Virus record (IMG/VR): IMGVR_UViG_3300029998_000020
Coordinates: 28,767-92,766 of that record
Source: a virus
Length of the DNA: 64,000 bases
Strand: one strand, 5' to 3'
Part shown: piece by piece, positions 7,444 to 39,281 of the stretch
Position numbering within the stretch: the stretch's first letter is position 1
How the letters are laid out: the number at the start of each line of letters is the position of its first letter
Translations under genes and position numbers: made by a program
The notes under the pieces: model-generated
The model's database searches: none
Told to the model about the DNA's origin: nothing
Seen by the model: only the letters and a program-made list of their open reading frames with translations

Positions 7444-7710
7444 TTATTTTTTATTTACTTTTTCTTCACCGCAAATGTCAATTTTTATTTTATCTAAATC
7501 TTTCGTTGCACCTTTTCCTTTAGTCCAATATTTGTTTATATTATCAAAAAATTCACTTTTCTTTTCATCTGATAATTTTGCAGGAGATTTAACATCATAG
7601 CAATCAAGTATAAATTTAAAATATTCTCTATACTCTATTTGTAAATCTGATAATTTTTCATTTAAAGATAAACTTTCATTATATTGTTTAAAATCTTTGA
7701 TTTTATTCAT
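7444..7710 (-). CDS. Small protein with capsid-targeting-like leader
   Basis: An 88-residue protein. The start MNKIKDFKQYNESLSLNEKL has the pattern of a Met-basic helix with FxxYNE and LNE sites, like the T4 capsid-targeting sequence (MKTYQEFIAE). The rest is a charged helical region (KLSDEKKSEFFDNINKYW). A TTTAATATATA box (7731-7741) sits 20 nt before the ATG. It may be an internal head protein (inference). Confidence 0.55.
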   Translation of the reverse strand: MNKIKDFKQYNESLSLNEKLSDLQIEYREYFKFILDCYDVKSPAKLSDEKKSEFFDNINKYWTKGKGATKDLDKIKIDICGEEKVNKK

Positions 7711-7756
7711 GCGTATATTTTCTTTTTTTGTATATATTAAATAATAAAAATCATTT

Positions 7757-7963
7757 TTATTTTAATGTAAATTGTCTTTTGATTAAATTACCTTTTAACT
7801 TAACTATTTTCTTAGATCCATCTTCAAAATATATAGTAATCTCAAAATTATCAAATATTAAGCCAAAATCTTGATATTCAATATTATCATATGAATTTGA
7901 TATAATAATTACATTTTTGTTGTGATAAAAACCTTTTCTTCCTACATAATATTCTTTAAACAT
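7757..7963 (-). CDS. Small beta-rich hypothetical protein
   Basis: A 68-residue protein with alternating strands (YYVGRKGFYHNKNVIIISN, ITIYFEDGSKKIVKLKG). There is no leader motif. It lies between two putative head-interior genes. No family recognised. Confidence 0.5.
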   Translation of the reverse strand: MFKEYYVGRKGFYHNKNVIIISNSYDNIEYQDFGLIFDNFEITIYFEDGSKKIVKLKGNLIKRQFTLK

Positions 7964-7989
7964 TTATATATTAAATTTTTGATATTTTT

Positions 7990-8478
7990 TCATCTTGGAT
8001 TAATTCTATTTGCAACCTGCATCATTGAATTGTATCTTGCCTTTTCAAACATTTCTAAAGATATATAATCAGAATTTGAGAAATCAATATTTTCATTTAA
8101 TCTTTGACGTTCCTGAGTTTGTTTTATTTCATTTAATCTTTCGTCACGAAGTTTTTGCATAACTTCATTTAACTTATTTTCTCTTTCTTCTTGTTTAACT
8201 TCATTGATAATCTGTCCATTTACTCTTTTCTCAATGTTAAATTCATTAATGTTAAAATCTTGTGAGTATTCTTGTCTTCTTACTTCATTTATATTTTGAG
8301 TTTTAAAATTACTATAATTATCGTTATAATTAGTATAGTCAGTAGTTTCTTTTAACATTTGAGTGTTGTATGAGTTGTCGTTACCTCGTAATTGCTCATA
8401 TGCATAATTTGTTGATTCTGATTTTTGTGTATTTACTTGTTTAAACAAGTCTAAATACGATTGATCGTAATATTCCAT
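7990..8478 (-). CDS. Putative core/scaffold-like protein with repeated (L/I)NE sites
   Basis: A 162-residue, Asn/Gln/Glu-rich, charged and mostly helical protein. At least six INE or LNE tripeptides are spaced through residues 65-140 (INEVRR, INEFNI, INEVKQ, LNEVMQ, LNEIKQ, LNENID). The T4 prohead protease gp21 cleaves after (L/I)xE, and T4 core proteins are cut repeatedly this way. By analogy this may be a processed head-core protein (inference). A TATATATTAAT box lies at 8517-8527 on its promoter side. Confidence 0.5.
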   Translation of the reverse strand: MEYYDQSYLDLFKQVNTQKSESTNYAYEQLRGNDNSYNTQMLKETTDYTNYNDNYSNFKTQNINEVRRQEYSQDFNINEFNIEKRVNGQIINEVKQEERENKLNEVMQKLRDERLNEIKQTQERQRLNENIDFSNSDYISLEMFEKARYNSMMQVANRINPR

Positions 8479-8528
8479 TCTATTGTATTGTTTTTGTTAT
8501 ATATTATTATGATGAGTATATATTAATA

Positions 8529-9476
8529 TTACAAGTTAAATTTGGTTATATCTTCATAAAATGGATTTTCCTTTATAAAATCAGCAAATCTCTCATAAAA
8601 AAGTTCTCCATTATTCTTTTTTAACATATTATAAAATTTAGGATATGCACCCAATCTCAATAATTTTGTTGATATGTCAATACCTCCTAATCCAGATTCA
8701 TAATATAATCTATTGTATATTAAAATAACAAAATCATCATACATATATTTTTTAAGTGGAGTCATAAAATCATCTATTATATTAAAATTTTTCTCAATCA
8801 TTGGTAACATATTTGAAAATGTTTTCATATCTTGAATTATCACACCATTATCAAATAGAGTTTTAAATATATTTATTACTATATTTTTACTTTTATCACT
8901 ATAATGTCTTAGTTGATAAGTCAAAGGATATAAATAACTTACTTGGTCCTTACCATTTAAATTTACATTGTTTTTTATTAATAATTCTAATATTTTTTTA
9001 TTTAATATGGATCCTGTGAGAACTGATTGAGAATTGATATCTATTTTATTTATATCTACTCCATCGTTAATTATTTTTTGATATAACTCAACATTGAACA
9101 ACTTCTTTATTGCTAATGTAATTAGTGTTGTTCTATTAATTTTGGTTACTTGATTAATATTAGCTCCTAAATCATACAATTTTTTGAATACTTTAAGACT
9201 CTTGCAAAAAAATAACACATTCTCGCCTGTAGATTTTACTACTTGATTTAAGTCAACTTTAAATTTTAAAATATAATCAATCAAATCTTCATTATTAGAT
9301 GAAACTACACTCATTAATACGTTTTTACCACTTTTATCACTATAATTAACTAATCTATTAATTAATGCTGAGTTTTTGTTGTCTTCTGTTTCTAATGATT
9401 TTAATATTTCAATTATATCTTCATTAGACATTGATATGTTTTCATTTAATAGAAACATGTTATATTTTTTTATCAT
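8529..9476 (-). CDS. Ankyrin-repeat protein with capsid-targeting-like leader
   Basis: A 315-residue protein. After the leader MIKKYNMFLLNEN there are ankyrin-like units from about residue 40: SGKNVLMSVVSSNNEDLIDY, TGENVLFFCKSLKVFKKLYD, then LGANINQVTKINRTTLITLA, a DGVDINKID unit and LELLIKNNVNLNGKD. The C-terminal 100 residues are less repetitive and end NPFYEDITKFNL, a version of the tail shared with the next genes. Ankyrin repeats bind proteins. A phage ankyrin protein with a packaging-type leader could be an injected effector (inference). Only one base separates it from the next gene. Confidence 0.65.
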   Translation of the reverse strand: MIKKYNMFLLNENISMSNEDIIEILKSLETEDNKNSALINRLVNYSDKSGKNVLMSVVSSNNEDLIDYILKFKVDLNQVVKSTGENVLFFCKSLKVFKKLYDLGANINQVTKINRTTLITLAIKKLFNVELYQKIINDGVDINKIDINSQSVLTGSILNKKILELLIKNNVNLNGKDQVSYLYPLTYQLRHYSDKSKNIVINIFKTLFDNGVIIQDMKTFSNMLPMIEKNFNIIDDFMTPLKKYMYDDFVILIYNRLYYESGLGGIDISTKLLRLGAYPKFYNMLKKNNGELFYERFADFIKENPFYEDITKFNL

Positions 9477-9477
9477 A

Positions 9478-9864
9478 TTATATATTGAATTTATTTGAGT
9501 TTTTATAAAATTCTAAGTTTTCTGGATGTTCTAAAAAAGAAACATTGTTATATCCTATAATTATTCCATAATCGTCTATTAATAATCCACAATTTTTTGC
9601 ATATTTCTCAGCCTCAATATCATCTTTAATTAAAATTGAGTCATCATCTTTTTGTATTTGCCAATAATCTCCATATTTATTTGTATATGGTACATTATAT
9701 TCATTTGGAATATTCAATCCTGATGCATGTGAAATAAGCCAACCTTCTTTTTTCATTATATCATCATAAAGATTACAAAACCATTCAATGAAGGGCTGAA
9801 ATAAATCTATTGGATATATTTTCTTATTATCTTTAATATTTTCATATTTTTTGATATATTTCAT
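9478..9864 (-). CDS. Hypothetical protein with leader and YKNSNKFNI tail
   Basis: A 128-residue protein beginning MKYIKKYENIKDN and ending HPENLEFYKNSNKFNI. Between them is a domain with GWLISHASG, YGDYWQIQKDDD and a LLIDDYGIIIGYNN hairpin. The tail matches the proteins at 11142 and 11485. The junction with the next gene is TAA-T-ATG. A TTTAATATATA box (9885-9895) sits 20 nt upstream of the ATG. Function unknown. Confidence 0.55.
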   Translation of the reverse strand: MKYIKKYENIKDNKKIYPIDLFQPFIEWFCNLYDDIMKKEGWLISHASGLNIPNEYNVPYTNKYGDYWQIQKDDDSILIKDDIEAEKYAKNCGLLIDDYGIIIGYNNVSFLEHPENLEFYKNSNKFNI

Positions 9865-9912
9865 TTATAACATATATTTATTTATATATATTAAAAAATT
9901 AAAGTTATTTTT

Positions 9913-10539
9913 ATGAGCAAAAGTGAAACACCAACAGAGAAAGATTATAGAGAATCATTTCAATCAAATATAGACAAATTAAAAACTGAAATTGAAGATG
10001 CACAAGAAGAATTGGATTTTGATCCATCAGAATTTTTTCCAGTTAATAATAACATAGATTTAAATTTCAAAATTGAAATGCATGATTATGAAAAAGATTT
10101 GGAAGTAATAAGAGAAGAATCTAAAGAAACACTTGAATGCATAGCAAATTTATATTTATCAGAAGATATTATGTTAAATAAAAATATAAATAACATAATA
10201 AAAAATGATGCACTTGCAATTTCTGATTTAAAATTTTCAATTTCATGTTCAAAAAGAGGATTAATAAATCTGATGAAGCAAATAGATAATGGCAGTTCAG
10301 ACGCTGATTTATTTCAGGCTGTTTCTATGTTTCAAAGAGAAATGAAAGATTGTATTGAAACTTTATATAAATTACAAAAAAGTATGAAAGAATTTTTTAA
10401 AGATTTAAAAGAAGAATTAAAGGAAATAAACATAGGTGATAGTGAAGTAGAAATACACGATAAGTATAAAGATATGAGAATTTCAGATAGAGATATTAAC
10501 AAATCAATTGATATTATATTAGCATCTAAAAAGAAATAA
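9913..10539 (+). CDS. Coiled-coil protein, possible small-terminase-like
   Basis: A 208-residue acidic helical protein, the only plus-strand gene in this block. An N-terminal coiled coil (EKDYRESFQSNIDKLKTEIE) is followed by a patterned helix pair (DYEKDLEVIREESKETLECI ... QREMKDCIETLYKLQKSMKE). That pattern is loosely like the central domain of T4 gp16-type small terminase subunits. I rate the terminase idea as weak. A profile comparison with the T4 DNA-packaging family would decide it. An A/T box at 9885-9895 precedes it. Confidence 0.45.
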   Translation: MSKSETPTEKDYRESFQSNIDKLKTEIEDAQEELDFDPSEFFPVNNNIDLNFKIEMHDYEKDLEVIREESKETLECIANLYLSEDIMLNKNINNIIKNDALAISDLKFSISCSKRGLINLMKQIDNGSSDADLFQAVSMFQREMKDCIETLYKLQKSMKEFFKDLKEELKEINIGDSEVEIHDKYKDMRISDRDINKSIDIILASKKK

Positions 10540-10570
10540 AAAAATCAGTAGATATTCTACTGATTTTTTT
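10538..10570. terminator. Bidirectional hairpin terminator
   Basis: An AAATCAGTAGA / TCTACTGATTT stem with A and T tracts lies between convergent genes. The last codons of the minus-strand gene ending at 10557 fall inside it. Confidence 0.7.
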
Positions 10571-10841
10571 TAAATGTTTCTGATTTAATTTTTTCTATTG
10601 CTACTATCACTATGCTAACGTACACTTTCTTTTTTTCATCTAAAAGTTCACACATATGCTTTGTACTATCAGACAATCCTTTTAATTTATCATATTCTTC
10701 ATCAGTTAAATAAACAGTTTTATTATTATTTCTTCTTGTTGAATATTCCTGAGTTTTAGTTAACTCTCCATTTTCACTCAACTCATAAGGATTTCTAAAT
10801 TTATCCTTATCAACTTCTTCATTAAATTTTTCTATTTTCAT
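10557..10841 (-). CDS. Paralogue A1: leader plus LTDEEYxxLK domain
   Basis: A 94-residue protein: leader MKIEKFNEEVDKDKF, then NGELTKTQEY, then VYLTDEEYDKLKGLSDSTKH. It is a clear paralogue of the next protein upstream (NGELKLG, IFLTDDEYSRIKDLADNIKK), sharing order and spacing. It lacks the KFNL tail. Probably a small virion-associated protein (inference). Confidence 0.55.
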   Translation of the reverse strand: MKIEKFNEEVDKDKFRNPYELSENGELTKTQEYSTRRNNNKTVYLTDEEYDKLKGLSDSTKHMCELLDEKKKVYVSIVIVAIEKIKSETFKKNQ

Positions 10842-10855
10842 ATTACTTTTTATTT

Positions 10856-11140
10856 TTATAAATTAAATTTATTAGTTGTTCTCATAAATTCAGAGTCATC
10901 TTTAACTTTTGATATTGCAGTTCTTAGTCTTAATATCTGTGTTTCTTTCATTGCATTATAATTCTCACAAGATTTTTTTATATTATCAGCTAAATCTTTT
11001 ATTCTACTATACTCATCATCAGTTAAGAAAATATTAGAACTCATGGTGTTGCCAAGTTTCAATTCTCCATTTTTAGGTTCAATAAAATATCCTTTTTCTC
11101 TTGAACTTTCGTTTATTTCTTCAAATTTATTCACCTTCAT
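10856..11140 (-). CDS. Paralogue A2: leader plus LTDDEYxxIK domain
   Basis: A 94-residue protein with the leader MKVNKFEEINESSREK, whose INE-S site resembles the T4 capsid-targeting cleavage site. The domain SSNIFLTDDEYSRIKDLADN is paralogous to the protein at 10557-10841. It ends MRTTNKFNL, like the other tailed proteins of this block. Its ATG follows the upstream stop as TAA-T-ATG inside a duplicated 47-bp junction. Confidence 0.55.
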   Translation of the reverse strand: MKVNKFEEINESSREKGYFIEPKNGELKLGNTMSSNIFLTDDEYSRIKDLADNIKKSCENYNAMKETQILRLRTAISKVKDDSEFMRTTNKFNL

Positions 11141-11171
11141 ATTATATGTTAAATTTTTTTGAATTTTTATA
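11125..11171. repeat. 47-bp gene-junction repeat, copy 1
   Basis: Nearly identical to 11468-11514 (two mismatches seen). It spans the KKFNI tail of one gene, the TAA-T-ATG junction and the MKVN(K) leader of the next. Its position exactly at gene boundaries makes it a plausible recombination seam. Confidence 0.8.
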
Positions 11172-11483
11172 CACCTCAGGATTGTCTACAAATTTCATTA
11201 TATCATCAAATTCACTTTGATTTATAATATCACAATATTTTTTTTTAGAACTAGATTCTATAATAATCATAACAGAATAAAAATATCCGTTATTTTCAAA
11301 ATCTTTCTCAATAGTCTTTTCTATACTAATTGCTTTAACTTTTTTAAGTCCATATCCATAATGATTTATTCTAAATTGATCATTGAAATTATAATAATCA
11401 CTTATGAGATTCATAATATCTAACCTTATTCTTTCACACTCATGGTTTAATTTTAAATATTCATCATATTTATTTACCTTCAT
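11142..11483 (-). CDS. Paralogue B1: leader, alpha/beta domain, KFNI tail
   Basis: I start it at 11483 (113 residues, MKVNKYDEYLKLNHE), not at the longer in-frame start at 11519. This gives the same start as its paralogue (MKVTRYEQFLKLKDK) and the conserved TAA-T-ATG junction. The two proteins match along their full length: LISDYYNFNDQFRI against LIQDYYNLNDDFRI, and NPEVYKNSKKFNI against NPDVYKNSKKFNI. They are a recent tandem duplication. Function unknown. Confidence 0.6.
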   Translation of the reverse strand: MKVNKYDEYLKLNHECERIRLDIMNLISDYYNFNDQFRINHYGYGLKKVKAISIEKTIEKDFENNGYFYSVMIIIESSSKKKYCDIINQSEFDDIMKFVDNPEVYKNSKKFNI

Positions 11484-11514
11484 ATTATATGTTAAATTTT
11501 TTTGAGTTTTTATA
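11468..11514. repeat. 47-bp gene-junction repeat, copy 2
   Basis: The second copy of the tail-junction-leader sequence at 11125-11171, offset by 343 bp, about one gene length. Confidence 0.8.
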
Positions 11515-11814
11515 TACATCAGGATTTTCTATAAATTTAATCATATCATCATATTCACTTTGAGTTAACTTATCATAATTTCTACCTCCTGGTACATAAT
11601 ATTCTATCCAATAAAAATATTCTCCTGAATCATAATCTATTTCATCAGACTTACTAACATTTAAGACAATTTTAATATTATTATCTCCAATATGAGTTAT
11701 TCTGAAATCATCATTCAAATTATAATAATCTTGAATTAGACTCATAATATTACTTCTTTCGATATCGTATTTATCTTTCAACTTTAAAAATTGTTCATAT
11801 CTAGTTACTTTCAT
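11485..11814 (-). CDS. Paralogue B2: leader, alpha/beta domain, KFNI tail
   Basis: A 109-residue protein, MKVTRYEQFLKLKDK at the start and YKNSKKFNI at the end, duplicated from or into the neighbouring gene. The middle (DSGEYFYWIEYYVPGGRNYD) diverges from the other copy, so the ends are better conserved than the core. It lies six bases after the stop of the gene that follows on the plus-coordinate side. Confidence 0.6.
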   Translation of the reverse strand: MKVTRYEQFLKLKDKYDIERSNIMSLIQDYYNLNDDFRITHIGDNNIKIVLNVSKSDEIDYDSGEYFYWIEYYVPGGRNYDKLTQSEYDDMIKFIENPDVYKNSKKFNI

Positions 11815-11820
11815 GCCAAT

Positions 11821-12126
11821 TTAATTCATTTTGAAATATTTATCATAAACAAACTCAGCGGTATATTCTTTTCTTTTATCTTTAAGATTATTTATTTCTT
11901 CTAATATTTCTGGATTGTTATCAAACATATTTTTTAGATAAGATTCCGCTTCATCTAATTGATTAAAAGACTTTTCACTTATATGTTTTTCATTACAATA
12001 TATGTGTGATATGTGATCAAATACATCATCAACATAATTTCTTACTGGAAATTTCCATCCAAATGAATTTATTTCATATTCTGGATTTTTATTGTACATT
12101 TCCGTTATTAATTTAACGTGATTCAT
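11821..12126 (-). CDS. Hypothetical 101-residue protein
   Basis: A protein of unknown function, helical and charged (NQLDEAESYLKNMFDNNPEI), ending KYFKMN. A TTTATATATA-type box lies 21 nt before the ATG (12148-12157), so it probably heads the transcript reading through the B and A paralogues. It has no typical leader. Confidence 0.5.
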   Translation of the reverse strand: MNHVKLITEMYNKNPEYEINSFGWKFPVRNYVDDVFDHISHIYCNEKHISEKSFNQLDEAESYLKNMFDNNPEILEEINNLKDKRKEYTAEFVYDKYFKMN

Positions 12127-12156
12127 TTAAATATATTTATTTTTCAGTATATATAA

Positions 12157-12188
12157 AAAAAAATACACTTAAATAAGTGTATTTTTTA
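12157..12188 (-). terminator. Hairpin terminator of the DHH gene
   Basis: An AAATACACTTA / AAGTGTATTT hairpin followed (minus strand) by a T-run. It overlaps the final codons of the DHH gene and separates it from the next transcript. Confidence 0.6.
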
Positions 12189-14028
12189 ATAATATTTCAA
12201 ACTTTATATTTGTATCATTTTTAATATATACTCTATTCATTATATTGAAAATATATTTAAATATTCTTTTAAGTTCTTTTCTTTGAGTTTTTCTTGCATC
12301 TATTAGAGTGCTACTGTAAATATCATTCAATTCAAATTTTGTATAAATTTTTTCAAATAGTATACTATTTTCAATGTCTTTATTTCTTTTGAAATATATT
12401 TTTTCTAAATCATTTGATTTTACTGTTCTACATTTAATTTCATTAAAGTCTGTATCTAGCCAAATATCATATATTTTTCTGATAGTATCATTTTTGAATT
12501 TTGAAATTATATTTTCATCTTTAATACTATTTGTAATAATATAATTTAATATTTCTATTTCATCATTTTCAACTTTAATATCATTTTCACTACTAATATT
12601 ATTAATATCCATTAATTTTTTATTGACTTCATCAGGTGCAAAAACTTTGCCTTTTTCATCTGATTCATTCCAAGCCATTGTGATACCCCACTTAACTCCT
12701 GAAATATCATTAATAATTTTATTTCTTAATAAATCTAAAAATTTAATATTTTTATAATTTTCTTTTTTGCATTTTTTGAAAATATTAGATATTGAACCAA
12801 TACCAGTATGTCCACCTGCAACTGTTCTATCATCATCATATTCTAAATGTTGTTTGAAGTTTTTTAATAAACCATCCATATATGAACCTAAATTATCAAT
12901 TGGTATACCATTCTTATCTTTTGGTAAATCATCTGGCGACATATCAGACATTTTAGTTGTCAAATTTGCAATTTGAAGTGTATTACCATATTGTAACAGA
13001 ACGAAATTTAATTTAGTATTATACTGAATAATACCTGATTCAACATCTTGTGAAAAAATAGCCTTAGCTCTTAATGCATTCGCCCAAGTTCCTGACGGTA
13101 CATACATTAAATTTCCTATTATTTGATATACAACAGGCTTAACTTGCCATTTTAATTCATCAGTATTTATTACATTACCTTCATCATCATGATCTATGTA
13201 TGGAATTTTTTGTGCAAATTTTTTCCAAAATTCATCTTGTGATGAAAATATTATTTTTTTACCATCTTCTGTGAACCCTTGTGATTCATTTCCAATACCT
13301 TTTGTTTTTGATTTCATTTGTTCTAATCTTAAATATGCATCAGATACAAATTCAGGTTCATCACCATTTTTGAAATTAGGATTATTTTTAGGATAGAATA
13401 TTTTAAATAATCTGAAAATGTTATATATTGATGGTTCTTGAGATGCATTTATAACTTCAATAAATGTTTTATGGTCAGAACGCTTGAGCATTTGATTAAA
13501 TGATGCTGCAAAATTTAACTTTGCATTATCACTATTGATAATATTATTTAAATCAAAATCTAATATACCTTTGATGTCTACATGATACTCATCATATTTT
13601 GCAGAATCAATCATGTCTATCCAATCTTTTGTGTCATTTGAAAATGGTATGCCTAATTGTTGAGCTAAACCTTCAGCTGCAGAACCAGTATTTGTTTTTA
13701 TACTACCTTTCTTTTGTGCTATTATTTTCTCTTCTTCAGAAAAAATTCCATGGTGGTCGACATAATAATTAAATGACTCATCATCCGAAGAAAAATCTAA
13801 TGTTATATTAATCAGTGAGTTATCTAATTTGAATGCATCAACACCTTCTTGGTAATCAATCAAACCATATCTAAGAATTTTAAAATCATGATTAATTAAA
13901 TAATTCTTCATTATTATTGCGGAAACTATTCCGTCTAAATCATTGTGTGTAATTAAACATACATTTTTTCCAGATTTGCCTTTTTTTAGCCAATAATTTA
14001 TATCATTTGGAAGTCTTGGTGCAGCCAT
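12169..14028 (-). CDS. DHH-family phosphoesterase
   Basis: A 619-residue protein. N-terminal metal-binding motifs of the DHH superfamily are visible: THNDLDGI (about residue 27-34), LDFSSDD near 78 and YYVDHHG near 90. A late AGGHTGIGS is the substrate-binding GGHxxxxG of the DHHA1 domain. Members are nanoRNases, pyrophosphatases or RecJ-like nucleases. At 619 residues it has more than 150 extra C-terminal residues of unknown role. A perfect Bacteroidota promoter lies just upstream, so it is likely expressed early by host polymerase. Possible roles are RNA turnover or cleavage of a nucleotide signal. Confidence 0.8.
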   Translation of the reverse strand: MAAPRLPNDINYWLKKGKSGKNVCLITHNDLDGIVSAIIMKNYLINHDFKILRYGLIDYQEGVDAFKLDNSLINITLDFSSDDESFNYYVDHHGIFSEEEKIIAQKKGSIKTNTGSAAEGLAQQLGIPFSNDTKDWIDMIDSAKYDEYHVDIKGILDFDLNNIINSDNAKLNFAASFNQMLKRSDHKTFIEVINASQEPSIYNIFRLFKIFYPKNNPNFKNGDEPEFVSDAYLRLEQMKSKTKGIGNESQGFTEDGKKIIFSSQDEFWKKFAQKIPYIDHDDEGNVINTDELKWQVKPVVYQIIGNLMYVPSGTWANALRAKAIFSQDVESGIIQYNTKLNFVLLQYGNTLQIANLTTKMSDMSPDDLPKDKNGIPIDNLGSYMDGLLKNFKQHLEYDDDRTVAGGHTGIGSISNIFKKCKKENYKNIKFLDLLRNKIINDISGVKWGITMAWNESDEKGKVFAPDEVNKKLMDINNISSENDIKVENDEIEILNYIITNSIKDENIISKFKNDTIRKIYDIWLDTDFNEIKCRTVKSNDLEKIYFKRNKDIENSILFEKIYTKFELNDIYSSTLIDARKTQRKELKRIFKYIFNIMNRVYIKNDTNIKFEILLKNTLI

Positions 14029-14053: not shown

Positions 14054-14083
14054 CAAAGATAACAAAATATTTCTAATATACAA
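14054..14083 (-). promoter_or_regulatory. Bacteroidota-type promoter for the DHH gene
   Basis: On the minus strand TTG (complement of 14081-14083), 19 nt, then TATCTTTG (complement of 14054-14061). It has the same spacing as the promoter at 3235-3264 and lies about 25 nt upstream of the DHH start codon. Confidence 0.75.
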
Positions 14084-21362: not shown

Positions 21363-21653
21363 TTAATGTTTTTTGTGTTTATAATATAATTTTTTACTAT
21401 ATTTTTCTTCTTGTTTTTTTCTTTCTTCTAATTTTTTATTAATTTCATTATAAGTGTTATTGGATAATTTTTCCAAGTATTTCAACTTTTTCTTTCTATC
21501 TTCTTTTTTCCTTACTTGTGATTCGTATTTTTCTATTATTTTAGCAGTAATAGAATCAATAATTACATAATTACCAGATCCGTTCAAATTTTTCTGGTGA
21601 ATAATATTCGCAGCATTTAGTATTTTTTGATATAGTTCACTGTTTTTTGACAT
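21363..21653 (-). CDS. Lysine-rich helical hypothetical protein
   Basis: A 96-residue, strongly basic, coiled-coil-like protein (RKKEDRKKKLKYLEKLSNNT, ending KYSKKLYYKHKKH). It may bind nucleic acid by charge alone. It sits between two terminators downstream of the tRNA gene. No family recognised. Confidence 0.5.
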   Translation of the reverse strand: MSKNSELYQKILNAANIIHQKNLNGSGNYVIIDSITAKIIEKYESQVRKKEDRKKKLKYLEKLSNNTYNEINKKLEERKKQEEKYSKKLYYKHKKH

Positions 21654-37514: not shown

Positions 37515-39281
37515 TTAATCAATTGAAACGTTATTAACAGGCTTGTATTTGTTAATTAATGTTTCTCTATTACTAAATCCTCTGCTTCTTGGACTCATGA
37601 TAACAATAGGAGAACTTTGAGCAGCTTTATAAACTGAAATTTTCATTTTACTAACAGCAAAATTTACTTGCTCATTCCATTGTTTGATATCATATTTATA
37701 AACTTCCTCCATTTTAGGGAAATAGTCAATATTTAATGAATGATTTTTATAATCTAAAATCAAATCATCTCGTGTTTTTCTATCTCTAATTAAAGATGCA
37801 CATATTCCACTTTGCACCCAATAATCAATAGGATCTTCATTTGCATCAGGTAATTCTGCTGCAGGTTTAAATTTACCATTATATAAATCAAAAGGTACAA
37901 TCTCATCTTTATACAATTCTGTGTTTATATAATCTGACAATTCATACAATTCAACTTTTGTCAAATCACCAATAATAGCATGAACACCAATTGATCCAAT
38001 ATCATGAAATGAAGCCCAGCCAAGAACTATTTCAGTGTGATTTCCAGTTGATACAATACCACTTTTAAATCTGTGAGTATCTTCTAATCCTAACACAGTT
38101 CTTAGTACAGCATGAATTGATGCTTTACCTGTATCACTTAATTCAGGTGAATCACTCATATGAATTTTATCAACTTCTAATATTTCATTGACTGTTGATT
38201 GAATAGGTTGCCAGTATGTATTTGTTCCTAATTTTTCGTCTAATTGAGTTACATAATCTTTTGATTTAGTATTCAATGAAGATGGATTAGATATAAATAT
38301 TGTATGTTCTTTACCCATAGCACGATAAACTAATGCTGCTACAATAGATGAATCAAGTCCTCCTGACACATGAACTTGAGCATTTTCAATTCCTGATAAT
38401 TTGAAAAATTCTTTTTGTTCAAATAGAATTGCATCAGTAATTTCTTTATATTTACTATCATCGCTACCTACTATTGGTTCACTTTTTTTTAGTCTGAATG
38501 TTTCAGTTGTTTCTTTAAATTTAGGTAGTTCTTTAACTAATCTACCATAACTATTATAGACAAGAGAACCTCCATCGTAAATTATAATATTTTTAACAAT
38601 ATCTCCACAACCAACAGAATTTAATGATACTACTGGAACCATATTATTTTTTGCAATTTTAGAAAATAAATTTTTTCTGATTTTTTGCTTACCATAATAA
38701 AAATATGATTGATTAGGTATAATTAAAATTTCTGCCCCCATATTAACCATTTCTTGTGGTATGTCTCTATGATGGTTCATAAACCAAGAATCTTCACAAA
38801 TTGGTATTCCTATGATAGTTTTACCTGCATTTGGTAAGTAAACTTCAAAAACTTTAGTTTCAGTTCCTTCTGTGAAATATTTTCTATCTTCATGATGATC
38901 TGTATCTGCTAACAATTGTTTATCATAGGTACGAATTCCATCTTTATCAATTACCGCTACTGAATTTTTCAATATAGGAAATCCATTTCTGTTATTACCA
39001 TGTGATGAAACGAATCCAACAATAATAATACCATGTAATCCTATTTCTTTTCTGAATTTTTGAATTTCTTTCAATTTTGTGATTTGATCACGAATGAAAT
39101 CTTCTCTATCCCAAAGAGAACCACAACAATAACCACTAATAGCAGTTTCTGGGAAAACTGATATATCTACAAAATTTTTACTATCTAATTTTAAACAATC
39201 CATAATTTTTTGGGTATTTCCAATTAAATCACCAGTGACTGTATTAATCTGATGTAACGAAATATTTGCATTTTCAATCAT
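37515..39281 (-). CDS. nadE: Glutamine-dependent NAD+ synthetase
   Basis: A 588-residue enzyme. The N-terminal nitrilase-type glutaminase has the full triad: E45 (FPETAISGY), K121 (TYDKQLL) and C162 (GIPICEDSWF). The C-terminal synthetase has the PP-loop SGGLDSS at 306-312, SDTGKAS, GIVSTGNHTE, and HAIIGDLTKVELYELSDYI. It amidates nicotinate adenine dinucleotide to NAD+ using ATP and glutamine. It is monocistronic, with its own Bacteroidota-type promoter and terminator, so host polymerase can express it early. It may replenish NAD+ against NAD-depleting defences (inference). Confidence 0.93.
   Translation of the reverse strand: MIENANISLHQINTVTGDLIGNTQKIMDCLKLDSKNFVDISVFPETAISGYCCGSLWDREDFIRDQITKLKEIQKFRKEIGLHGIIIVGFVSSHGNNRNGFPILKNSVAVIDKDGIRTYDKQLLADTDHHEDRKYFTEGTETKVFEVYLPNAGKTIIGIPICEDSWFMNHHRDIPQEMVNMGAEILIIPNQSYFYYGKQKIRKNLFSKIAKNNMVPVVSLNSVGCGDIVKNIIIYDGGSLVYNSYGRLVKELPKFKETTETFRLKKSEPIVGSDDSKYKEITDAILFEQKEFFKLSGIENAQVHVSGGLDSSIVAALVYRAMGKEHTIFISNPSSLNTKSKDYVTQLDEKLGTNTYWQPIQSTVNEILEVDKIHMSDSPELSDTGKASIHAVLRTVLGLEDTHRFKSGIVSTGNHTEIVLGWASFHDIGSIGVHAIIGDLTKVELYELSDYINTELYKDEIVPFDLYNGKFKPAAELPDANEDPIDYWVQSGICASLIRDRKTRDDLILDYKNHSLNIDYFPKMEEVYKYDIKQWNEQVNFAVSKMKISVYKAAQSSPIVIMSPRSRGFSNRETLINKYKPVNNVSID

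Follow-up and report, generated by a model that had tools for sequence, protein, structure and literature searches.

Paired leader and tail sequences at the termini of about 100 proteins in a huge-phage genome, a candidate signature of head cargo

Phage proteins with unrelated bodies may share short terminal sequences, and here we report an N-terminal leader that is coupled to a C-terminal tail on about 100 proteins of a huge phage. The window (the whole stretch of DNA analyzed; 64,000 nucleotides) comprises bases 28767 to 92766 of a 92,766-base IMG/VR virus contig (G000) and is part of a huge-phage fragment. The same region is held by the 330,208-base contig IMGVR_UViG_3300029983_000007 (G001), in which window position p lies at p + 88372; 60-base probes from window positions 1000 to 40000 (n = 5) were present in G001, and those from 50000, 60000, and 63500 were absent. 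A further genome, G002 (256 kb), was counted as well; it shares 283 reciprocal best hits with G001 and is not independent of it.

At least seven neighboring proteins of the window had been noted to begin with a short basic-aromatic leader, and seven such open reading frames (ORFs) do lie within positions 7444 to 11814, all on the minus strand, as are the nine-codon ORF, the 11821-to-12126 and DHH genes, and the window promoter elements described below. Five of the seven also end in K-F-N-[IL], the exceptions being 7444 to 7710 and 10557 to 10841. The ankyrin-repeat protein (8529 to 9476; 315 amino acids [aa]) has the same kind of leader, as the initial annotation had it: it starts MIKKYNMFLLNEN (leader, MIKKYNMFLLNE), ends in the tail ITKFNL, and was identified as an ankyrin-repeat protein by profile (Pfam Ank_2, E value of 9.9e-08, 32.9 bits versus a cut-off of 27.3). 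Its AlphaFold2 (AF2) model is mostly helical, with a mean predicted local distance difference test (pLDDT) score of 82.9; residues 309 to 315 score below 50, and the first ten average 63. Upstream of it lies a 128-aa tagged protein (9478 to 9864; start, MKYIKKYEN; leader, MKYIKKYE; tail, NSNKFNI), which had no Pfam match over the cut-off and no match in PHROGs (a search restricted to ten ORFs of this locus in the window). Three further tagged proteins are encoded at 10856 to 11140 (94 aa; start, MKVNKFEEINES; leader, MKVNKFEEINE; tail, TTNKFNL), 11142 to 11483 (leader, MKVNKYDEYLKL; tail, NSKKFNI), and 11485 to 11814 (109 aa; leader, MKVTRYEQFLKL; tail, NSKKFNI). The first of these has a similar gene, with both tags, in the related locus L014, and the other two fall in one group of similar bodies; the start of the 11142-to-11483 gene is likely the internal ATG at 11483 rather than the longest-ORF start at 11519.

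The two leader proteins without a tail are a framework gene product (7444 to 7710; 88 aa; start, MNKIKDFKQYNES; leader, MNKIKDFKQYNESLSLNEK), which matched PHROG 28651, a family of unknown function (E value of 3e-09), and has similar genes in the related loci L014, L015, and L020, and a 94-aa protein (10557 to 10841; start, MKIEKFNEE), whose gene is followed by a hairpin and a T run. Reading of the sequence also revealed a nine-codon ORF (7964 to 7993; MKKYQKFNI-stop), in which a leader is joined directly to a tail; it is perhaps an eroded cassette and may have arisen by chance. The ORFs at 7757 to 7963, 7990 to 8478, and 9913 to 10539 (plus strand) are leader-free. Beyond the seven lie another framework gene with a leader-like start and no tail (11821 to 12126; start, MNHVKLITEMYNK) and a leaderless DHH-like phosphoesterase gene (12169 to 14028; start, MAAPRLP; Pfam DHH, E value of 0.0061, below the cut-off). 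Genes of the framework (protein starts MNHVKLITE, MEYYDQSY, MFKEYY, MNKIKDF, and MKDTKLN) recur in relatives, and the tagged genes between them vary; at the site where other relatives hold the ankyrin gene, G002 has a 50-aa tailed ORF, apparently a remnant.

The leaders noted initially were half of the pattern, from which the C-terminal tail and the scale were missing. In G001, 104 of 578 ORFs (18 percent) end in [FY]N[ILMV], 79 of these also fit the leader pattern, and the tagged ORFs stand in runs of up to 11. The typical leader is M-K-x-[IL]-K-x-[FY]-E, with variants; the fullest tail form, taken from a leader-picked set, is [AST]-[NKD]-K-[FY]-N-[IL]. The two are strongly coupled: the tail is found on 79/97 ORFs with a strict leader versus 25/481 others in G001 and on 54/74 versus 13/387 in G002, and none of the set-aside overlapping ORFs carried both tags (0/289 and 0/177). 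Leaders exceed chance, since N termini resembling a capsid-targeting sequence (CTS; by a rule of our own) are far more common in ORFs than in internal-Met decoys (103/578 versus 14/1205 in G001; 86/461 versus 18/808 in G002). A literature search, which covered subscription papers little, found no earlier report of the leader-tail pair. Judged by sequence, the tail is a new element, and the observation is much larger than first noted.

Tails are preserved in 52 of 52 reciprocal ortholog pairs between G001 and G002, at a median gene identity of 65%. Where a residue is unchanged between the two genomes, its codon is unchanged as well at a frequency of 0.789 in tails, 0.854 in leaders, and 0.770 in bodies. 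Since all ortholog tails are kept while their synonymous codons turn over as in bodies, conservation of the tail acts at the peptide level; that the leader is likewise conserved as peptide rather than DNA is less clear from this codon test. G001 has 103 tails of the form K[FY]N[ILMV], of which 53 overlap the next start codon as ATGA and the rest do not, and several tails sit directly 5′ of terminator-like hairpins. Certain codons are overused in tails (Asn AAC, 52/103 versus 14% genome-wide; Ile ATA, 47 versus 2 for ATT), a sign that ancestry or the nucleotide level has some effect. The aromatic residue of the tail is mostly F in G001 (93 F and 10 Y) and G002 (58 F and 1 Y), and 30 of 30 tails are K-Y-N in contigs G006, G008, G015, and G016; this joint shift between clades suggests that the tails may share a receptor.

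The leader resembles that of the T4 internal proteins. The T4 leader cited initially, MKTYQEFIAE, is correct for IPII and IPIII; IPI starts MKTFKEFTST. In the T4 targeting sequence, residues 4 and 7 serve targeting and residues 8 and 10 serve processing, and T4 Alt is cleaved at its C terminus as well (both from excerpts of PMC9026906). In G001, residue 4 is hydrophobic in 79/104 tagged versus 195/474 untagged ORFs and residue 7 in 87/104 versus 192/474, so that the short leader retains the targeting positions, which favors a capsid-targeting reading. Targeting fits better than T4-style processing because the cleavage motif (L/I)xE, which the initial annotation gave for T4, occurs within residues 5 to 14 of a minority only (27/104 tagged versus 48/474 untagged). 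Tagged proteins have a median size of 123.5 aa (untagged, 114 aa) and do not answer to the small basic protein type of T4. Taken together, four indirect lines of evidence, all given below (the protease of related phages, the PAU gene cluster, the promoter class, and the DHH loci), favor a leader that would act as a detachable, T4-like capsid-targeting propeptide, a proposal that we regard as partly supported. A protein with PPK2 and HAD RNA-repair domains (L047:7298-8941) also starts leader-like (MLKYDDYNKLNE) and adjoins a tagged array; it is not among the tailed ORFs. On the window's contig but outside the window, seven small proteins (L002, 1984 to 7453) share another start, MK[IL]RxGFV[SG]NSSSSSF, on differing bodies.

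The bodies are diverse. In G001 and G002 together, 209 proteins carry at least one of the two tags (both, 133; tail alone, 38; leader alone, 38), and they fall into 93 body components; the 171 tailed proteins fall into 66. The largest components are GDYV (42 members) and ankyrin (22), followed by components of 8, 7, 5 (leucine-rich repeat [LRR]), and 5; the window protein at 9478 to 9864 is the sole member of its own. When all ORFs were searched with tagged bodies, homologs with neither tag were rare in the six largest families (1/43, 1/23, 0/8, 2/9, 0/5, and 0/5) and made up 34 of 243 matched ORFs across all families. This search is a better test than the invariance of tag residues in alignments A1 (30 of 42 members) and A2 (19 of 22, window copy included, plus L005), which is partly circular, as members were chosen by tag; alignments A4 and A5 comprise 55 of 64 and 51 of 104 listed references. 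In AF2 models of GDYV (mean pLDDT, 86.7; residues 1 to 10, below 50) and the window ankyrin protein, leader or tail is a low-confidence end on a folded body. Foldseek gave no match to the GDYV model at an E value of ≤0.001; its top ranks were nitrile hydratase beta subunits (E value of 0.13), then tudor and chromo domains. Pfam searches with 55 representatives of the tailed components matched ankyrin (2 members), LRR (1), ExoX-like_C (1; E value of 3.4e-08), and CBM39 (1; E value of 0.00062), with weaker single matches besides. No IPI-III family was among the Pfam matches (these representatives and window ORFs) or the locus PHROGs, and no direct comparison with IPI-III was made.

Two promoter-like motifs peak 30 to 39 nucleotides (nt) 5′ of the ATG on the sense strand of G001, a host-like one (TANNTTTG) and an AT-type one (TTTWATATA). 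The host-like motif was found in sense and antisense orientation 56 and 25 times in 213 upstream regions of G001 and 45 and 20 times in 169 regions of G002; the AT-type motif was found 42 and 42 times and 47 and 36 times, respectively. Tagged genes belong almost wholly to the AT-type class (AT-type:host-like, 67:3 in G001, with 10 both and 24 none; 48:0 in G002, with 1 both and 18 none), compared with 61:181 and 65:91 for untagged genes; genes that share an operon are not independent counts here. Counting only tagged genes with their own upstream region gave 12:1 and 9:0, and tighter motif spacing in G001 gave 58:3 for tagged and 55:159 for untagged genes. Ten of 14 listed references were scanned per class for its contents. 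The AT-type class includes collagen-like and Fib_succ proteins, and nine of ten large candidate structural genes checked are AT-type (121247 is unassigned); the host-like class includes a gp32-type protein, nicotinate phosphoribosyltransferase, and polynucleotide kinase. The AT-type class would mark late expression. In the window, AT-type-like motifs were read 5′ of the 11821-to-12126 gene (12148 to 12163) and of the 9478-to-9864 and ankyrin genes (9883 to 9898), both of them putative, and the −7 box of a host-like promoter (TATCTTTG; 14054 to 14061) precedes the DHH gene. NAD synthetase (window, 37515 to 39281) and nicotinate phosphoribosyltransferase (L033:2664-3851), both of the host-like class, form an NAD supply route.

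The DHH enzyme occurs with and without a leader. Among 37 related loci, 10 are leaderless and 24 leader-bearing; L203, which has its box at 25 nt and lacks a clear leader, and the remote L208 and L209 were left out of this comparison. All 10 leaderless genes have the host-like box 32 to 35 nt upstream; none of the 24 leader-bearing genes has it at 30 to 42 nt, and five have a box at 46 to 110 nt. The leader (for example, MIINFKLFE, MKNFNEYLEVLNE, or MLIKFDDFLFE) ends directly before the conserved start [SA][AS]P or AAAR (for example, SAPRIP), and its last residue is E in 20/24, D in 2, and Y in 2. Leaderless proteins that lose Met and leader-bearing ones that are cut after E would share one mature N terminus, as expected of a cleaved propeptide. 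In L024, the reading frame of the leader-bearing copy is broken between 7096 and 7209. The tail was absent from the leader-bearing DHH proteins among those listed.

A 1059-aa G001 protein of unknown function points to relatives of the phage; it is 35 to 37% identical to proteins of uncultured phages of 634 to 735 kb (37% over 99% of its length to LR745206) and also matches phage PAU, Tenacibaculum phages, and Lak phages. The gp21-like protease gene whose search had been proposed initially was found in related records, with a Peptidase_S77 (gp21 family) match in 9 of 10, 6 over the cut-off (W01 to W05, 5/5, 2 over the cut-off; second set, 4/5, 4 over the cut-off), and was not secured on the window contig or G001. 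In 14 control genomes, the same search gave a match in 1 (below the cut-off) and in 0, respectively. In each of W01 to W05, no more than 4 kb separates the protease from a Gp23-type capsid gene, the latter over the cut-off. Contigs G013 and G014 have an S77 match below the cut-off together with a leader-bearing DHH gene. Similar leader-bearing proteins (L107:2508-2897 and L228:12109-12501) occur near the capsid-protease region in LR745206 and G014; two members of alignment A5, perhaps these proteins, match the NFACT-R RNA-binding domain. A 96-aa window ORF (21363 to 21653) was not accepted as a capsid protein (41-residue Gp23 likeness, below the cut-off); it has counterparts in 4 of 8 related contigs.

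In PAU (JQ362498), 20 of 295 ORFs start MKTLTQLYE or a near variant; of these, 15 are among the 37 ORFs at 100 to 121 kb, and the remaining 258 ORFs include 5 (Fisher P = 1.7e-11). Because the sequences had been viewed before the pattern was drawn up, the clustering is the test and the count is not. The cluster holds the protease (111.4 kb) and the capsid gene (114.9 kb), and leader ends such as LYE and LFE fit the T4 (L/I)xE.

We propose that the tagged proteins are a phage-wide set of late, doubly tagged head cargo, loaded into the capsid and ejected into the next host (probability, roughly 0.55). From the tags, their coupling and conservation, the diverse bodies, and the promoter-motif class, we infer late expression, core binding, cleavage, packaging, ejection, and a receptor for the tail. 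The leader would work like the T4 capsid-targeting sequence, binding the prohead core and carrying the body into the head, and a gp21-type phage protease would probably remove it after Glu. The tail would provide another protein signal, one specific to the clade, whose likeliest binding partner is a receptor that the phage itself encodes, for example a protein of the core or shell; the bodies would be exchangeable cassettes that act at once after ejection. Packaging in the head is plausible on these gene-level grounds. A more specific version is tentative and somewhat less probable than its negation, namely that a cleavable leader and a free [AST]xK[FY]N[IL] tail are two loading signals that put about 100 fast-exchanged proteins in the head, with a coevolving tail receptor behind the clade-wide F/Y switch.

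Several observations weigh against head cargo. Leaders without tails as a class occur in PAU, the 735-kb phage LR756501, G013, and G014 (tail among leader ORFs of the first two, 1/21 and 1/22; among ORFs of the last two, 1/96 and 0/83), which means that the leader works without the tail in PAU, W01, G013, and G014. (L/I)xE is mostly missing, the leader E is followed by A, S, G, or N in 38/97, and the net charge of tagged proteins is acidic (median, −3 versus 0 for untagged). Leaders are few in PTm1 (12/315 ORFs; decoys, 9/970), pT24 (11/300; decoys, 11/1306), and MA9V-1 (5/267; decoys, 11/1249). The window contig has no S77 match at an E value of ≤10, and G001 has one only below the cut-off (E value of 0.07; 54-aa frame); Gp23 matches on both are likewise below the cut-off, with no real capsid gene there. 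S77 matches over the cut-off were found in 0/8 and 0/9 IMG/VR contigs, including those of 256 kb and 464 kb, the latter with a leader-bearing DHH gene; these contigs may be fragments. MaF61 gave no S77 match, and the protease of Lak-A2 lies far from its capsid gene. In G001, the AT-type motif occurs equally often in antisense orientation, and only its position is strand specific; its class also includes topoisomerase and PPK2, and tighter spacing drops the tail-fiber gene 113112 and gene 137957 from it. The leaderless DHH loci (about four distinct sequences) may trace back to a single evolutionary event or to two. Our confidence in the cargo reading is reduced because of the large contigs without the protease and the structural genes lost at tighter spacing. 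A literature search found no virion protein identifications for these phages; the available text of the MA9V-1 paper shows sodium dodecyl sulfate-polyacrylamide gel electrophoresis only.

The tags might instead direct their proteins within the infected cell, toward the replication compartment, the membrane, a host complex, or another such site or partner; the proteins would then be assembly factors or effectors in the cytoplasm. Ankyrin and LRR are folds that serve binding, the acidic charge agrees with such a role, and a clade-specific tail with a joint F/Y shift is expected of any receptor-bound signal; we nevertheless hold this rather unlikely, given that the leader is hydrophobic at the T4 targeting positions, that leader genes cluster with head genes in PAU, and that the DHH leader ends at a mature-like N terminus. 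Less probable still is a capsid-targeting leader paired with a tail that has nothing to do with packaging and governs stability or degradation, through a protease adaptor or quality control. Hydrophobic C termini are common protease signals, and no tail class is present on the leader proteins of PAU and W01 or on the listed leader-bearing DHH proteins; against this stands the strong pairing of tail with leader inside the clade.

By far the least probable, and mostly rejected, is that leader and tail are DNA by-products, junction sequences that aid translational coupling, promotion, or recombination of tandem cassettes. At the ATGA stop-start overlaps, adjacent tags do form one DNA string, AAC and ATA are overused in tails, leader codons are somewhat more conserved than body codons, and cassettes are gained and lost between framework genes. 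Yet tails are kept on genes directly 5′ of terminator-like hairpins, synonymous turnover in tails equals that of bodies, and I/L/M/V and F/Y interchange within tails.

If the tagged proteins are head cargo, huge phages deliver a large protein arsenal together with their DNA, part of their stock of uncharacterized genes is explained, and leader plus tail becomes a simple sequence rule for predicting injected proteins from metagenomes; the leader-bearing DHH and PPK2-HAD enzymes would then be candidates for counterdefense or repair ahead of transcription. Even without packaging, a leader-coupled tail on 18 percent of ORFs calls for an explanation and is directly testable.

Among known systems, phage PAU is probably related through the large protein and the capsid and protease of the lineage and has the same kind of leader (MKTLxxLYE) on many proteins; it differs in having no tail class, in leaders that fit (L/I)xE, and in the clustering of leader genes with head genes. 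The huge phage LR756501 (735 kb) has similar leaders (MI[KT]xFKxFE) and no KFN tail class; instead, DP[YF]GEE, mostly followed by xW, occurs in 45 copies in 36 of 546 ORFs (first 400 kb; L086 to L105). Ten copies of this motif are C terminal, and none was present in any other genome or piece covered by the scan; Lak pieces, translated with TAG as Gln, entered this motif scan only. SPN3US (phiKZ-like) packages a large set of partly cleaved proteins in its head, according to excerpts of PMC10052503 and PMC5694885. Its ejection proteins resemble the present ones as a large packaged set (packaging here being predicted from genes) and differ in the protease motif, AXE. To our knowledge, they share no leader or tail comparable to those described here. 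In encapsulins, cargo-loading peptides are short C-terminal tags that load cargo into an HK97-fold shell; they are nonphage and unrelated in sequence, and the analogy holds for the tail only. T4 IPI to IPIII are similar in plan, being small proteins with differing bodies and a short MK leader that is hydrophobic or aromatic at positions 4 and 7 with a later Glu (IPII and IPIII), and relatives of the present phage have a gp21-type protease and a gp23-type capsid. The set described here differs from them in its roughly 100 members per genome, its acidity, its many ATGA-coupled arrays, its mostly missing (L/I)xE, and its second tag at the C terminus.

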